Shown here one piece after another: positions 24,761 to 32,012 of a stretch of DNA of 64,000 bases; within the stretch, counting starts at the first letter, position 1, and each line of letters opens with the position of its first letter. The position numbers and the translations under genes were made by a program. Under the pieces are notes generated by a model. The model had not been told where the DNA came from. It ran no database searches and saw only the letters and a list, made by a program, of their open reading frames with translations. Origin of the DNA: Candidatus Aegiribacteria sp. MLS_C (lineage in GTDB: Bacteria; Fermentibacterota; Fermentibacteria; Fermentibacterales; JCC-6); NCBI GenBank assembly GCA_002030045.1, contig LQBI01000001.1:62001-126000 (forward strand), given 5' to 3'.

Positions 24761-26050
24761 ATGGCCGGAGGAGCGAACTTCAACCCATTCAGGATGGCTC
24801 AGGAGCAGTTCGACAAGGTAGCGGACTTCCTGGACCTGGACGAGGGGGCGAGGGGTCTTTTGCGGAATCCCATGAGGGAGTATCACTTCAACATCCCCGT
24901 AAGGATGGACGACGGTTCCGTCAAGGTGTTCAGGGGCTTCAGGTGCCAGCATAACGATGCAAGGGGACCCAGCAAGGGCGGCATCAGGTTCCACCCCCAG
25001 GAGACCATAGATACCGTAAGGGCTCTTTCCATGTGGATGACCTGGAAGTGCTCCGTAGTTGACATCCCCCTGGGAGGCGGGAAAGGCGGCGTCATCTGCG
25101 ACCCGCACAACCTTTCGATGAGGGAGCAGGAACAGATATGCAGGGGCTGGATCAGGCAGCTTGTCAGGAACGTGGGCCCGCTGCAGGACGTACCGGCTCC
25201 CGACGTGATGACAAGCGCCCAGCACATGCTGTGGATGATGGACGAGTACGAGACGATAATGGGTGCCAAGTACCCCGGCATGATCACCGGCAAGCCCGTA
25301 GGCATGGGCGGCAGCCTCGGAAGGACCGAGGCCACCGGTTTCGGCTTGATCTTCACCGTCCGGGAAGCCCTGAAACAGCTGGGTATCAGACCCCAGGACA
25401 CCATTGCGAGCGTCCAGGGGTTCGGTAACGTGGCACAGTACGCCATCCGTCTCTACAACCAGCTGGGCGGTACGGTCGTATGCGTTTCCTGCTGGGACCA
25501 GACGGACCAGAAGAGCTACTCTTTCCGCAAGATGGACGGTATCGATCTGGATGTCCTCCTGTCAATCACCGACAAGTTCGGTGGAATAGACAAACAGAAG
25601 GCTAAGGACCTCGGCTACGAGCTGCTGGACGGCGATCGGTGGATCGACCAGGAAGTGGACATACTCCTGCCCTGCGCACTGGAGAACCAGATTAACTCCG
25701 AGACCGTCAAGAAGATAAGCAGCAGGGTGAAGCTGATCGGCGAGGGAGCCAACGGACCTACCACACCCGAGGCCGACATCGTCATCAAGGAGAAGGGCAT
25801 CTTCGATATCCCGGACTTCCTGGCGAACGCCGGCGGGGTCACCTGCTCCTACTTCGAGCAGGTCCAGTGCAACATGAACTACTACTGGACCAAGGACGAG
25901 GTTCTCGGCAAGCTGGACCAGAAGATGACCGAGGCCTTCATAGCGGTCAGCGATCTGGCGGCGAAGCACAATATCTACATGCGGGACGCTGCCTACGTGA
26001 TAAGCGTTAGCAGGGTCGTGGAAGCATGCAGGGCCAGAGGCTGGATTTAG
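24761..26050 (+). CDS. gdhA: Glutamate dehydrogenase
   Basis: The enzyme interconverts glutamate with 2-oxoglutarate and ammonia, linking amino-acid fermentation and nitrogen assimilation. The 429-residue product has the substrate site GPSKGGIRFHP, the catalytic lysine in IPLGGGKGGV and the NAD(P) fold with VQGFGNVAQYA. The C-terminal part has GEGANGPTTPEAD and FLANAGGVTCSYFEQVQ. Size and pattern match the shorter hexameric type often used with NAD in fermenters, but coenzyme choice is not certain. It stands alone with a terminator-like hairpin after it. Confidence 0.93.
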   Translation: MAGGANFNPFRMAQEQFDKVADFLDLDEGARGLLRNPMREYHFNIPVRMDDGSVKVFRGFRCQHNDARGPSKGGIRFHPQETIDTVRALSMWMTWKCSVVDIPLGGGKGGVICDPHNLSMREQEQICRGWIRQLVRNVGPLQDVPAPDVMTSAQHMLWMMDEYETIMGAKYPGMITGKPVGMGGSLGRTEATGFGLIFTVREALKQLGIRPQDTIASVQGFGNVAQYAIRLYNQLGGTVVCVSCWDQTDQKSYSFRKMDGIDLDVLLSITDKFGGIDKQKAKDLGYELLDGDRWIDQEVDILLPCALENQINSETVKKISSRVKLIGEGANGPTTPEADIVIKEKGIFDIPDFLANAGGVTCSYFEQVQCNMNYYWTKDEVLGKLDQKMTEAFIAVSDLAAKHNIYMRDAAYVISVSRVVEACRARGWI

Positions 26051-26102: not shown

Positions 26103-26117
26103 TCATTGAGGGAGAGC

Positions 26118-26978
26118 ATGGGACTCTGCTTTTTCTGCAGTGACCTGCACGGCGATCAAGTGAAGTACCGATCACTGTTCGAAGCCGTACTCAGAGATGG
26201 ACCGGAAGCAGTTTTCCTGGGAGGTGACCTGTTCCCTGGAGCATTCGCATCTCTGGCGCAGGGCAGGGATTCCGGGGAGTTCCTGGAGGAGACCCTGGCA
26301 GGAGGGTTCCTGGCCCTCAGGCAGGAAATGAGCGAAGACTACCCCGAAGTATTCGTGATCCTGGGCAACGATGACGGCAGGTACCTCGAACCGGCTGTCC
26401 TCGAGTGGGATTCCCGCGGTCTGTGGCACTACTCCCATGGTCGTTTCCTCGACCTGGACAGGTTCCGGGTCTTCGGATACTCCTATGTACCCCCGACTCC
26501 ATTCATGCTCAAGGATTGGGAGAAGTACGACGTATCAAGATTTGTGGATCCCGGTTCGGTACATCCTTCGGACGGGATGCATTCCGTTCCTGTATCGGAT
26601 TATGAACTGGCCTTCTCGACCATACGGGACGATCTGAGCGAGATGACATCCGGGCAGGACCTCTCCGACACCATAATGCTCTTTCATTCCCCGCCCTACG
26701 GCACCGATCTGGACAGGGCGGCCCTGGACGGGGTCCAGGTCGACCATGCACCGCTGGATGTTCACGTGGGGAGCATTGCGATCTCCAGACTGATAAAGGC
26801 GAAACAGCCCCTGGTGACCCTTCACGGCCACGTGCACGAATCAGCTTCCCTGACGGGCAGATGGATGGAGAGGATGGGCGGCACCTTCATGTTCTCCGCG
26901 GGTCATGACGGCCCGGAACTGGCGCTGGTCGAGTTCGACCCCGAAAACCCTGCGTCAGCGGTAAGGGAACTCCTGTAG
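26118..26978 (+). CDS. Calcineurin-like metallophosphoesterase
   Basis: The 286-residue product shows the metallophosphoesterase motifs in order: CSDLHGD, FLGGDLFPG, LGNDDGR, MLFHSPPYG and LHGHVHES. The two-metal centre is therefore complete. Such enzymes hydrolyse phosphomonoesters or phosphodiesters, and the substrate cannot be told. The ATG at 26118 follows GAGGGAGAG. An in-frame TTG upstream is less likely. It converges on the PEP-synthase-like operon. Confidence 0.85.
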   Translation: MGLCFFCSDLHGDQVKYRSLFEAVLRDGPEAVFLGGDLFPGAFASLAQGRDSGEFLEETLAGGFLALRQEMSEDYPEVFVILGNDDGRYLEPAVLEWDSRGLWHYSHGRFLDLDRFRVFGYSYVPPTPFMLKDWEKYDVSRFVDPGSVHPSDGMHSVPVSDYELAFSTIRDDLSEMTSGQDLSDTIMLFHSPPYGTDLDRAALDGVQVDHAPLDVHVGSIAISRLIKAKQPLVTLHGHVHESASLTGRWMERMGGTFMFSAGHDGPELALVEFDPENPASAVRELL

Positions 26979-27147: not shown

Positions 27148-30100
27148 TCAGTCCCTGGACCCGCCCATCTCCAGCGGTCTCGCAGCGTCGCTGACCGCCC
27201 CTATCTTCGAAGCGTAGGATTGTCTGTTCTCTATGTCCGTATCGGTTATCACGTGCACGTCCAGGAGGTTCTCTGTACGCATGCCCGTCCTGATGGAGTT
27301 CATCTCGGAGAGGCACACGTCCCAGCCCTCAAGATAGGAATCCAGCATTTTCCTCTGATCTTCGGTACCCTGGAAGTGCACCAGGAGGTCCAAGTCGCTC
27401 AGAGCTCCGGCGGTTGCGTTCTTGGTGCTTCCGAACACGTACATGGCCCGTACGCCGTACTTAGAAGGATCGATCCCCCCGGCCAGGGTCTCGGCCATCC
27501 TCTGCCTCCAGAGCCAGTGATCATCGGATTCCAGCTCCGTGGTCCTCTGTCTCTTGGGGAGTCTTTCCCTGGAACTCCTCAGAAGATCGTCCTCATGGAC
27601 AAGGTAGCCCGCCGCCTGGCCCTCGTCACCGTTCATAGCTATCATGAGGACGCTGCCGCCCGTGCATTCCCTGACGTCTATCACCCTCACCACGCCGGCC
27701 AGCCCGGCGCAATCCGGAAGCAGCTGCGTGAGCTTGTTCTCGCTTTCTCTGAAGAAATCCCTCCTGAAGACCACGCCGTCGTCGTCGGGATAGAGGGGAA
27801 GGTATCTGATGCCGGCCTCCACAAGGTCCTGGAAGAAATGGGTGCCGAAGGAGAGGTCCGGGACGTAGCTTCCCCTCCTGAAAGCCATCTCGATCAGGGC
27901 AGCCGTGTTGTTGATGTCCGAATAGGTGACCTGGACACCGAGCTTGACGTCGCCCCGGCTTCCCCATCTCCCAGGTCCCATCAGTATGAAGCTCCTCTTG
28001 TTAAGGAGACTGTTGAGCCTTCCCACGATCCTTCCCACTTCCACCAGCTGTTCCATGCTGCCCAGCGAATCGTAGGCTTCCGGATCCACGTAAACAATGT
28101 GTGTTATTCCCTGCACGAAACCGTCGGATACGTACCTGTTGGCGGTGAACAGTATATCCTCGCTCTCCGGCTTTTCTGCCGGGCAGGCGTCATCGACCTG
28201 GGCCCACGAACTCTGGGCTCTGCACTGAAGCAGGTATATGTTCCTGTCGTCCGCCGCGAACTCCAGGTCCACCGGGAAGCCGCACCACTGCTCCAGCAGG
28301 TCCAGCATCCTTCTCATGGTACCCAGGAAACTGCTTCCCGGGCCAAGGAGTCCCTCGAAGGTCGGGATGACGTATTCACTGCTGAAGTCCGTCAATCTGT
28401 TCACCCTGGATATCATGCCATCACGATGTGTGGAGAACACCTTCTCGACCTGGGGGTACTCGTAACCGTACTCCCTTATGACGTCCTCCACGCGGACGGT
28501 TTCGATCCTCCTCTCCTCGAGGTTGATCACGTCCATGAACTTGGGTGCGTACCTGACGGTCTCGTCTACACTGGTGTTCACCCTGAGGCCGGGCTGCCCC
28601 GGGGCCGCGAGAACCGGGAAGTCGTCCCCCAGCCGGTCCACCGCTCTGGTGCCCAGTCCCGGGACAAGGCGGAGCAGACCGTCCTCCCTGCTTATCCTGG
28701 AGGACCACCTGAACTCGTTCCTGCTGAAGGCGACACCGCTGAAGGCGGGCATGTAGTATTTTCCGACCCTTGTACCCACCACCTGCTGGATCAGTATGCC
28801 CATCTCCTCCTGGAAGTCAAGGAGGTTCCTCTCCTTCCTGTATTCTATCGGATCGGGGCCGAACATCGAGGCGTAAACCTCGGCGATCGCGTCCATCAGA
28901 GCGTCCAGCCGCTCGCTCTTGGACCCCTGGTTCGCCAGGAAGAGGCTCTTGTACTTGCCGCTGAAGGCGGCCTCGATGCTGTCCTCGAGAAGGCTGGAGC
29001 TTCGTACGATCAGAGGATAATCTCCGATGGAGTCCAGAGTGACGGACAGGCCTCTCTTCATCTCAGGGCTGAAGGCGCAGTTCTTGAAGAGCTGAATGAG
29101 GTTGGGGTATTCTAGCCGTATCTCTCCAAGGTAGCGGTACCTGTATTCCAGGAGTTCCTCCAGCCTGTTATGGTGGACGAAATCCAGAATACCGTCGCTG
29201 CTGATGTACCATGTGGAAGGGGTTCTGATGGCGGATAGGCTCCCGTCCTTGCCGCCCGCCTGCTCGAGCACCCTTTCCGCCATGAAAAGACCTGCACCCT
29301 TGCCTCCGAGCTGTCCGTGGCTCCGTCCGGGAAGGATGAGGTAATTCGCCAGTGTGTAGAAATGCGAGATGGAGACCGATTCCTTGAGCCTGCTGATATA
29401 ATCCAGCCTCCTGCTCACAAGACGTCTTATGAAGGATACCTTCAGGGCGTTCAGGACCGGGCGGGAGAGGCTCTCCTCGTCACTGACGACCCATCGGTGG
29501 GTTTCCATGGCCTGGATTATGTCCGTGAGCGAACTCGCGTGATCGTCCAGCACATTGATCAGGTGCTCGATCCTGTTCTCACCTATCCACCTCTGAAGAA
29601 GTTCCAGTATCTGTTCGCCGGTGAGTTCCCTGCCGGCTATGGCAAGTATCTCCTGGACAAGCTCGTAGCTGACCTCGAACTGGTGCCTGGGTATGGGCTG
29701 GTTGATGCCGCGGTGGTCCAGCTCGGAGTCCTTTCCCGAGGTTTGTCCCGCCCATCTGTTCAGCAGGGCGGTGGCATCGGATATGCCTATGAAGCTCAGG
29801 TAGTTGAGGAGTCTGCGGGACAGTGTCTGATAGAGTTTCCTGTCCGTTATGAGAAGCATGTCCAGGATGGTCCTCCAGGATTCGGTACCGGACTGCAGTT
29901 CGGTCAGTCCGGTGGCGTCCTCCTCGAACATCTGCGAGAGACTGTCATGAAGAATGGTATGGGATATCCTTCTGGCCAGGTTCCTCAGGAGCCGTCTCTC
30001 CTCGTCGAGGAAGGCCCCCTTCTCGAGCTGCGGGACCTTATCGGGGTAACTGACCGATACGCTCCCGACTATGCTTCCATTGATGACCAGGTTCTCCGAG

Positions 30101-30345
30101 AGCACCGGCCCGCCTTCCCGGTAGTCGCTGGAGTTGTACTCCCTGCCCATGTACAGGATCCTGGCCTTGCAGTCGGTAGGGTTGTAGAAGCCCTGCGGCA
30201 TGGCGTCGGCGACCATCTGGAGCTTCTCGGCCAGCGGACTGTCCGTCATGAGGATCTCGTCGGCCATGTAAAGACAGTTGAGTTCCTTTGCCCGTTCCCT
30301 CAGGGAGCTGAGGAGCTGCTGGGGATCGTGTCCCTTCTCCGTCAT
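27148..30345 (-). CDS. PEP-synthase-like ATP-grasp protein with NCLY sensor and nucleotidyltransferase
   Basis: The 1065-residue product has an N-terminal domain with AKELNCLY at residues 19-26, a GAF-like sensor type also seen in histidine kinases. A helical region follows. From residue 345 comes a PPDK/PEP-synthase ATP-grasp domain, with GGKGAGL at 347, VRSSSLLEDS and FSGKY, VVGTRVGKYYMPAFSGVAFSR and LLQCRAQS. A shared domain with GPGRWGS (about 790) and GTHFFQDLV is next. The C-terminus is a minimal nucleotidyltransferase with Gly972-Ser973 and the acidic pair Asp984/Asp986. The phosphohistidine swivel and PEP-binding barrel are absent, so it is not a PEP synthase. Function unknown. Its start overlaps the upstream paralogue (ATGA). 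Confidence 0.85.
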   Translation of the reverse strand: MTEKGHDPQQLLSSLRERAKELNCLYMADEILMTDSPLAEKLQMVADAMPQGFYNPTDCKARILYMGREYNSSDYREGGPVLSENLVINGSIVGSVSVSYPDKVPQLEKGAFLDEERRLLRNLARRISHTILHDSLSQMFEEDATGLTELQSGTESWRTILDMLLITDRKLYQTLSRRLLNYLSFIGISDATALLNRWAGQTSGKDSELDHRGINQPIPRHQFEVSYELVQEILAIAGRELTGEQILELLQRWIGENRIEHLINVLDDHASSLTDIIQAMETHRWVVSDEESLSRPVLNALKVSFIRRLVSRRLDYISRLKESVSISHFYTLANYLILPGRSHGQLGGKGAGLFMAERVLEQAGGKDGSLSAIRTPSTWYISSDGILDFVHHNRLEELLEYRYRYLGEIRLEYPNLIQLFKNCAFSPEMKRGLSVTLDSIGDYPLIVRSSSLLEDSIEAAFSGKYKSLFLANQGSKSERLDALMDAIAEVYASMFGPDPIEYRKERNLLDFQEEMGILIQQVVGTRVGKYYMPAFSGVAFSRNEFRWSSRISREDGLLRLVPGLGTRAVDRLGDDFPVLAAPGQPGLRVNTSVDETVRYAPKFMDVINLEERRIETVRVEDVIREYGYEYPQVEKVFSTHRDGMISRVNRLTDFSSEYVIPTFEGLLGPGSSFLGTMRRMLDLLEQWCGFPVDLEFAADDRNIYLLQCRAQSSWAQVDDACPAEKPESEDILFTANRYVSDGFVQGITHIVYVDPEAYDSLGSMEQLVEVGRIVGRLNSLLNKRSFILMGPGRWGSRGDVKLGVQVTYSDINNTAALIEMAFRRGSYVPDLSFGTHFFQDLVEAGIRYLPLYPDDDGVVFRRDFFRESENKLTQLLPDCAGLAGVVRVIDVRECTGGSVLMIAMNGDEGQAAGYLVHEDDLLRSSRERLPKRQRTTELESDDHWLWRQRMAETLAGGIDPSKYGVRAMYVFGSTKNATAGALSDLDLLVHFQGTEDQRKMLDSYLEGWDVCLSEMNSIRTGMRTENLLDVHVITDTDIENRQSYASKIGAVSDAARPLEMGGSRD

Positions 30346-32012
30346 CTGATCACCACTCCTAATCCTCGTCTTCCGTCTATCCTGGTACGGAGTCCGCCGG
30401 GTATGCAGATGCAGCGGACATGTTCCGATTCGTCCAGTATCTCGACCCCGTCCTCAAGCAGGTCCCACCTCACCGGTCCGTCCAGCGCCTCATTCACCGA
30501 AAGGTAACCCACTCCGAAACTGGATAGGTTGTGGAAGAAATGGGATCCCTGACTGAGTTCGACCCTCATGGAAGGTCCTGAGACCTCCATCAGCACTCTG
30601 GCACCGGATATGTGTCCCCAGGTGACCGGAATGCCCAGCCACGGATCGGTGCTGCCCCATCTCCCGAATCCGATCAGCAGGTATTCTTCTCCCAGGCTCG
30701 ACATGAACCTGTTGGCGGCAGCAACCTCTCCCGCTATTCCTGCGGTCGAAGAGCTGCTGAAGTTATCGGGTCTCACGTACACCACGTGATCCAGTCTGTT
30801 GTCGCCGTTACCCAGCGCCCTCCTGGAAATGGCGATCACCCCCGGGGAGGACAGCTCCTCCGGCTTTATCTCCACTTCGTCACCGGCCCCGGCGATGGGT
30901 CTGACCTGCAGGAGGCCGAGTTCGGGACCGCTCTCCCTGGAAGGTCCCCTCAGGGCGAACTCAAGCTCCACGGGAGTCCCCGATCGATCTGAACACAGTT
31001 CCATGGACCTGGCCACGGCCTCGTTAAGGCGTACGACCCGGTCCTGAAGGATGGGGGCGAAGTTGAGCACCCTTGGGCCATCCCTTCCGGTCCCGCTCAC
31101 CAGCATGTCGGACCCGGGGACGTAGGTGGAGGCCACAAGGCTGAGAGTCCCGTCATAATCAGCATCCTCAAGGGGACAGGAGGCCATGAACTCCGTCTCC
31201 CTTATCGGGTCGTACTCGGTTACCCTCTCCATGTTCACGCACCAGAACCGGTTCTGTGTCCCCTTCATCATCTCCGTGACCGAACCGAAGGGAGGGGGGG
31301 TCTTCGGATTCCTGGGGCTGTAGGACCAGCAGAGGCCGCCGTCGACGATGGTCTTTCCGAGCCCCAGCGCAAGGTTCACGACTCCGTCCTCCGGCCTGCT
31401 GCTGCCGAATGCGTAGTAGTTGTAGGAACGTGCGACGCCAGATACGACCGGGTAGAACCTGTTCCCGTACCTCCTGCCTGCGATGTCCTGCAGTACCACT
31501 GCCATGGCCTCTTCGGACAGGTCCGAGCCCATGCCCCTGTGGAATTCCCTGGAATCGGCGAAGAAGGTACTGGCCCAGACCAGTTTGACTGCCTCCATCA
31601 GCTTCCGGAAGCGTATCTCGTCGGAAGGCTGGTTGTTCGGCAGCATCTTGGTCTGGTATATGCCGGCGAGAGGTGTCCTGAGGCTGTCCTCCAGCAGGCT
31701 GGACGACCTTACGGCGACCGGTTCCCTCGTGTCGGCGATGTACTTCCAGAGTTCGCCGGAGAGAATCGGGGAGACCTCTCCCCTCATGAACGCCATGGCT
31801 ATCCTGTCGTCGGCCTCATCGTCCTCCGCGTCCCTCCCCAGGCCGTTCCTGCCGATGAAATCCCTGAAGTGATCGGCGGCGATAACGGTGAAACCGGGTA
31901 CGGTCACTTCCATCGGGAAGTCTTCCGCGGATTCGAGCGACCCGAGGATGGCCATGAGCCCGGATGCCTTGCCTCCGATACCGCCTTCGCCCAGTACGGC
32001 TGGATCGCTCAT
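30342..32012 (-). CDS. PEP-synthase-like ATP-grasp protein, short paralogue
   Basis: The 556-residue product is the first gene of a two-gene minus-strand operon. It has the PPDK-type ATP-grasp features GGIGGKASGL near the start, VRSSSLLEDS and AGIYQT, YPVVSGVARSYNYY, LALGLGKTIVDGG and LLQVRPI. A C-terminal domain follows with FGRWGSTDPWLG and GSHFFHNLSSFGVGYL, the same as in the larger partner. It lacks the sensor and nucleotidyltransferase parts, and both proteins lack the phosphohistidine domain. TCAGGAGGTG lies before the ATG at 32012, which decides the start. Function unknown. Confidence 0.83.
   Translation of the reverse strand: MSDPAVLGEGGIGGKASGLMAILGSLESAEDFPMEVTVPGFTVIAADHFRDFIGRNGLGRDAEDDEADDRIAMAFMRGEVSPILSGELWKYIADTREPVAVRSSSLLEDSLRTPLAGIYQTKMLPNNQPSDEIRFRKLMEAVKLVWASTFFADSREFHRGMGSDLSEEAMAVVLQDIAGRRYGNRFYPVVSGVARSYNYYAFGSSRPEDGVVNLALGLGKTIVDGGLCWSYSPRNPKTPPPFGSVTEMMKGTQNRFWCVNMERVTEYDPIRETEFMASCPLEDADYDGTLSLVASTYVPGSDMLVSGTGRDGPRVLNFAPILQDRVVRLNEAVARSMELCSDRSGTPVELEFALRGPSRESGPELGLLQVRPIAGAGDEVEIKPEELSSPGVIAISRRALGNGDNRLDHVVYVRPDNFSSSSTAGIAGEVAAANRFMSSLGEEYLLIGFGRWGSTDPWLGIPVTWGHISGARVLMEVSGPSMRVELSQGSHFFHNLSSFGVGYLSVNEALDGPVRWDLLEDGVEILDESEHVRCICIPGGLRTRIDGRRGLGVVIR

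Follow-up and report, generated by a model that had tools for sequence, protein, structure and literature searches.

A conserved pair of phosphoenolpyruvate-synthase-like ATP-grasp proteins encoded beside glutamate dehydrogenase genes in many phyla

What proteins carrying the ATP-grasp domain of phosphoenolpyruvate (PEP) synthase do when the rest of that enzyme is not detectable is the question raised by two adjacent genes, here named P2 and P1, in a 64,000-nt stretch of the Candidatus Aegiribacteria sp. MLS_C genome (contig LQBI01000001.1; positions 62,001-126,000). This whole stretch is referred to as the window, and all coordinates are those of the window unless an L-numbered locus is given. 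The pair is nearly always located beside a gene for glutamate dehydrogenase (GDH) in many phyla, and is therefore likely to be a system, not yet described, that controls GDH or acts as its partner. The two genes are arranged as follows.

30342..32012, minus strand: P2, first gene of the pair, 556 amino acids (aa); PPDK_N ATP-grasp domain and GRWGS/GSHFF domain
27148..30345, minus strand: P1, second gene, 1065 aa; GAF-like, helical, PPDK_N ATP-grasp, GRWGS/GTHFF and nucleotidyltransferase domains
30342..30345, minus strand: ATGA stop/start overlap of P2 and P1, 4 bp

The initial annotation had described a two-gene arrangement with an ATGA overlap, and this was borne out, as the 4 bp at 30345-30342 are shared; many homologous loci show the same -4 spacing. 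The most likely start of P2 is the ATG at 32012, which is preceded by AGGAGG, the alternative being a longer open reading frame with a GTG start that reaches 32273.

At least 558 relatives of P2 were found across GTDB species genomes, and the best 80 loci were examined together with the window. These 81 loci represent the closest relatives of the P2 studied here rather than a random sample, and their selection was independent of GDH. Record labels of the best 80 loci include Fermentibacteria, Ignavibacteria, Calditrichaeota, Zixibacteria, Neomarinimicrobiota, Bacteroidetes, Planctomycetota, Acidobacteria, Gemmatimonadales, Myxococcota, Eisenbacteria, Aminicenantes, Armatimonadota, Delongbacteria and Chloroflexi, among others. 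P1 comes immediately after P2 in 79 of the 81 loci (the remaining two stop at a contig edge), which answers in the affirmative the gene-neighbourhood check for conserved pairing that was proposed with the initial annotation. A GDH gene was found within 6 kb of the pair in 69/81 loci, lying upstream on the same strand in 59, upstream on the opposite strand in 2 and downstream on the opposite strand in 8, with a median gap of 111 bp in the upstream cases. Where the flanks were adequate (at least 1.5 kb upstream and at least 2.5 kb downstream), GDH was present in 44 of 47 loci. A metallophosphoesterase gene follows P1 in 47 of the 59 evaluable loci and is convergent in 45. The corresponding genes in the window are the following.

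24761..26050, plus strand: linked GDH, 429 aa
26106..26978, plus strand: linked metallophosphoesterase-like protein, 290 aa, convergent with P1

The order in the window and its relatives is P2-P1, then the convergent phosphoesterase and GDH, and elsewhere it is GDH-P2-P1, then the convergent phosphoesterase. As the linkage to GDH persists despite this rearrangement, it points to function rather than inherited order. The protein encoded at 26106-26978 has no Pfam match of its own and finds the same conserved gene as L037:12858-13718, which matches PF00149 (E 3.4e-9). DxH, GD, GNDD, H and GHxH motifs were recognised in it by eye, with GNDDGR in place of the commoner GNHD.

Co-occurrence, scored by hand from the listed matches, was examined in the window's order. 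P1, either full length or as a short variant, and a GDH of the window type (defined as at least 69% identity) were both present in 33 of 42 genomes and both absent from 7, with one genome carrying only P1 (a genome that is 67% complete) and one carrying only GDH. The genome also encodes a paralogue of the pair, P3, and with one genome set aside P3 and a second GDH were found together in 37 genomes, with neither in 4 and no genome carrying one of them alone. It is very likely that the P2/P1 pair is functionally coupled to GDH.

The ATP-grasp domains of the two proteins were delimited as follows.

30870..31979, minus strand: P2 ATP-grasp domain, aa 12-381; K15, R102, T121, E351, Q369 and R371 conserved
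28189..29313, minus strand: P1 ATP-grasp domain, aa 345-719; K349, R448, E695, Q707 and R709 invariant

Both match PPDK_N in Pfam (PF01326) over these ranges, with E=6.4e-34 for P2 and E=1.2e-49 for P1, so that the PEP synthase/pyruvate phosphate dikinase (PPDK) ATP-grasp fold assigned to both in the initial annotation stands. The motifs named with it (GGKxxGL, VRSSSLLEDS, LLQxR, GRWGS and G[ST]HFF) were likewise all found in the pair, and most of their residues are invariant among 103 homologues and paralogues (P1, P2, P3 and short P1); K15, R102, E351, Q369 and R371 (P2 numbering) are invariant throughout this set. As these residues are conserved, both subunits should bind and use ATP. AlphaFold2 predictions, made as single chains, gave a good model for P2 (predicted local distance difference test score, pLDDT, 87.5; predicted template modelling score, pTM, 0.84) and a moderate one for P1 (pLDDT 80.1, pTM 0.62). 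Foldseek matches of P2 in the PDB, which come without residue ranges, were to rifampin phosphotransferase, PEP synthase, HpeI and PPDK, the best structural match of the ATP-grasp domain being rifampin phosphotransferase (5hv1, E 1.2e-12), with HpeI (PDB 9goj) also matching this domain (E 8.5e-10). A search of a viral fold library returned only ATP-grasp or PPDK-like proteins.

The swivel domain (PF00391; T/SxxGGxxxH) and the PEP/pyruvate-binding barrel (PF02896) were not matched by Pfam in P1 or P2 even at E<=10, and matches to NCBIfam PEP-synthase models were partial and far under the cut-off. As neither domain was detected, the pair does not belong with PEP synthase or PPDK, and the earlier view that the two proteins cannot be PEP synthases is upheld. 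The accompanying statement that both domains are missing agrees with the profile searches, and in the case of the swivel it extends no further than sequence profiles. That P2 and P1 are degenerate or ordinary PEP synthase/PPDK relatives with no special role, a reading that has the PPDK_N match in its favour, is very improbable given the undetected swivel and barrel and the conservation of pairing, residues and context across phyla. A further point against it is that this genome has a separate gene, on contig C1, in which PPDK_N and swivel matches fall within one 929-aa frame. The two PF00391 matches of the genome are both in genes other than P1 and P2.

Both proteins continue into a second shared domain.

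30369..30851, minus strand: P2 C-terminal GRWGS/GSHFF domain, aa 388-548; invariant His491 at 30542-30540
27586..28173, minus strand: P1 GRWGS/GTHFF domain, aa 725-920; invariant His836 at 27840-27838

The two copies match each other (hhalign E 6.6e-23), confirming the extra C-terminal domain that had been noted as common to both. No convincing match to this domain was found in Pfam for any of 26 members, nor by sequence in the PDB. Residues N434, G450, R451, G453, D456, E476, S487, H491, F492, F493 and Y503 (P2 numbering) are invariant in the 103 sequences, and the histidine of the G[ST]HFF motif (H491/H836) is the sole invariant histidine in this set, all paralogues included. In the AlphaFold2 models of both P2 and P1 the predicted order is strand-strand-helix-strand-helix-strand-loop(GSH)-helix-strand, and a helix begins at the histidine. 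The swivel domain has the same strand/helix order and likewise carries its histidine at a helix start, and the G[ST]HFF stretch resembles the TSHAAIVARELGIPAV of the swivel, with similar spacing from the histidine to a later G-hydrophobic. However, no match emerged when the C-terminal domain was compared by hhalign with an alignment of relatives' swivel sequences, and in a hidden Markov model test the two histidines were in register in 0/34 scored sequences, the same as in shuffled controls. That the domain might be a cryptic swivel, as the order of strands and helices would allow, is doubtful.

P1 carries two further domains, an N-terminal GAF-like domain and a C-terminal nucleotidyltransferase (PF01909), both of which were overlooked in the initial annotation.

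29902..30345, minus strand: P1 N-terminal GAF-like sensor, aa 1-148; from AlphaFold2 secondary structure and Foldseek
27166..27519, minus strand: P1 nucleotidyltransferase, aa 943-1060; GS..D984-x-D986 and D1029 conserved

The GAF assignment draws on Foldseek matches to the NifA GAF and phytochrome GAF-PHY domains (probability 1.00, E about 0.04), which are among weak GAF matches at E 0.02-0.1. The first 150 residues of P1 also resemble stretches of signalling proteins in relatives, one inside a histidine kinase frame and another in a frame at a contig end that also has PAS and GGDEF domains. In a relative (L131:2531-5901), the gene for a histidine kinase with such a stretch is followed by one for an NtrC-like regulator. 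The C-terminus of P1 matches PF01909 with E=4.5e-5 (24.2 bits against a cut-off of 21) and has weak Foldseek matches to MNT nucleotidyltransferases; G972, S973 and D984 are kept in 47/47 sequences, and D986 and D1029 in 46/47. Weak matches of this domain to the MntA antitoxin (E 7e-6, 25.8 bits against a cut-off of 60) and to the PADLOC candidate PDC-S09 could indicate a defence or toxin-antitoxin module built around an MNT-like nucleotidyltransferase. However, no HEPN toxin was found among the conserved neighbour clusters, the neighbours being GDH and the phosphoesterase, and the gene order is stable across phyla, unlike that of defence islands; this reading is barely credible and was rejected on genomic context.

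The paralogue P3 has a different N-terminal portion.

L009:5574-8573: P3, 999 aa, same genome; N-terminal receiver-like regions, PPDK_N and the same C-terminal domain

In the second receiver the Asp and Lys are retained in 9/9 aligned P3 sequences, and in the first the usual Asp is lost, as judged by eye; PF00072 was above cut-off in two of the four P3 proteins scanned. P3 adjoins GDH in L009, L038, L062, L069 and L125-L128; in L129 it adjoins a class-III aminotransferase gene. The short P1 (about 780-790 aa), which is without the GAF-like and nucleotidyltransferase domains, is found near P3 in part of the window's order: it occurs with P3 in L125, L126, L127 and L128, directly after a GDH gene in three of these four, and no P2 was seen in these four loci. 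As P3 and short P1 vary in their other domains, the ATP-grasp and C-terminal domains are the core of the family, and the input and nucleotidyltransferase domains are optional.

By their defining features the proteins are placed outside PEP synthase, PPDK and the rifampin phosphotransferase (RPH)-type dikinases. They share PF01326 with PEP synthase and PPDK and differ from them in being without the PF00391 swivel and PF02896 barrel and in having a different C-terminal domain. Rifampin phosphotransferase requires Lys22, Arg117 and Thr136 (PMC4844700), which correspond to K15, R102 and T121 of P2 (by HMMER alignment for R102 and T121, and by the GGK motif for K15). However, the pair has no rifampin-binding domain and no recognisable swivel, and no Pfam or PDB-sequence match was found for the C-terminal domain. 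RPH and the two-component small-molecule dikinases turn ATP into AMP and Pi by way of a phosphohistidine; the pair has one invariant histidine (H491/H836). HpeHI is a split PEP-synthase-like kinase whose ATP-grasp is confined to one component, a normal swivel being present in the other (PMC12167813). HpeHI, CreHI and PpsAB resemble the pair in having two components, HpeI being a free-standing PPDK_N ATP-grasp protein, but P1 and P2 both have an ATP-grasp domain and neither has a detectable swivel, and the neighbours of P2-P1 are GDH genes whereas those of HpeHI/CreHI/PpsAB relate to aromatic catabolism. P1 shares a C-terminal GS..DxD with MNT nucleotidyltransferases and with GlnE/GlnD, and its likeness to the latter extends to the proposed nitrogen control; unlike these enzymes, it has one small nucleotidyltransferase domain fused to an ATP-grasp protein, in a genome without PF08335.

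An alternative is a metabolic role, in which P2 and P1 together would make up a dikinase or ligase whose substrate is a small molecule from the GDH pathway (2-oxoglutarate, glutamate or a derivative) and the phosphoesterase would act downstream. In its favour, the ATP-grasp domain has its nearest solved relatives in rifampin phosphotransferase and HpeI, which provides the ATP-binding half of a two-component small-molecule dikinase. A shared pathway would fit the linkage to GDH, and the aminotransferase gene beside P3 in L129 is consistent with it. However, both subunits retain the ATP-grasp, unlike HpeHI, no substrate-binding domain of a known type was found by Pfam or PDB sequence, and the GAF-like and receiver domains resemble signal inputs. 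Because sensor domains are present on P1 and P3, control is favoured over plain metabolism, and a small-molecule enzyme is considered rather unlikely.

The preferred reading is that P2-P1 is a heteromeric ATP-using enzyme that acts with GDH and controls it covalently, to which a probability of roughly 0.4 is given. The GAF-like domain of P1, or the receiver domain of P3, would sense a signal, and the ATP-grasp domains would take a phosphoryl group from ATP and pass it to GDH or to a partner, possibly via the invariant histidine (H491/H836) of the C-terminal domain. The nucleotidyltransferase of P1 may perform a second, dispensable modification step, and the neighbouring metallophosphoesterase could reverse one of the two modifications. 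A paired system directed at another target had been proposed in the initial annotation; the pairing holds, and for the target, which had been left open, the context indicates GDH. A bacterial GDH under post-translational control is already known from mycobacteria, where GarA/PknG acts on the NAD-GDH (PMC2881912); the likeness lies in the proposed role only, as an FHA-domain protein and a Ser/Thr kinase are unrelated in type to the pair. The pair might instead be an allosteric partner, which would take up ATP and a signal and switch GDH through binding rather than covalent change; unphosphorylated GarA is a non-catalytic precedent for this mode of action. The linkage to and co-occurrence with GDH and the sensor domains are consistent with this, but pure binding would need neither the phosphoryl-transfer residues nor the nucleotidyltransferase aspartates, both of which are kept, making it improbable.

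Several points weigh against covalent control of GDH by the pair. Gene neighbours may mean a shared pathway and not control of an enzyme, and a few well-flanked loci, such as L075 and L057, have no GDH. The Fisher p value for the co-occurrence of P1 and GDH (2e-6) takes no account of shared ancestry. Complete-looking P1 homologues in L023 and L041, and the short P1, are without the nucleotidyltransferase, which is therefore not essential. We infer both the reaction and the binding of GDH from domain content and gene context. The nitrogen regulator PII also coexists with the pair in 18/40 pair-carrying genomes outside the window's order, and the idea that the pair is a simple PII replacement was rejected on this count. 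PII (PF00543) is absent from the genome studied here and was found in 13/14 control genomes, and no genome of the window's order has a PII match that passes the cut-off. PF08335 (GlnE/GlnD-type) is likewise absent from this genome; as it is also missing in 11/14 controls, only the absence of PII is informative.

If covalent control is correct, it is tentatively suggested that these proteins form a new and widespread class of GDH control, made up of sensor-linked heteromeric ATP-grasp enzymes with an undescribed His-bearing GRWGS/GTHFF domain, a fused nucleotidyltransferase and, in P3, a response-regulator version for a second GDH, serving nitrogen/carbon control in phyla often without PII. As GDH joins carbon and nitrogen metabolism, this would show how non-model bacteria, some apparently without PII, set their carbon/nitrogen balance, and a PEP-synthase-type ATP-grasp domain would be serving as a response-regulator output. 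It would also provide a testable function for proteins that databases would label merely as PEP-synthase-like. No assigned reaction for the family was found in the open-licence PubMed Central (PMC) literature, in keeping with its earlier designation as a candidate undescribed system, and no description of the P1/P2 family was found in these papers, which is weak evidence of absence. The link to GDH is strong and apparently unreported, and the pair varies the PPDK_N ATP-grasp plan by carrying a domain that is undescribed.

In two loci (L126:1-2071 and L127:12532-14851) P3 adjoins NfnA/NfnB-like genes (NADPH:ferredoxin oxidoreductase, glutamate-synthase-like), which hints at a redox connection. 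In L038 (13965-16712, minus strand) and L048 (12854-15244, minus strand) the main pair has next to it a second P1-like gene, encoded on the other strand.

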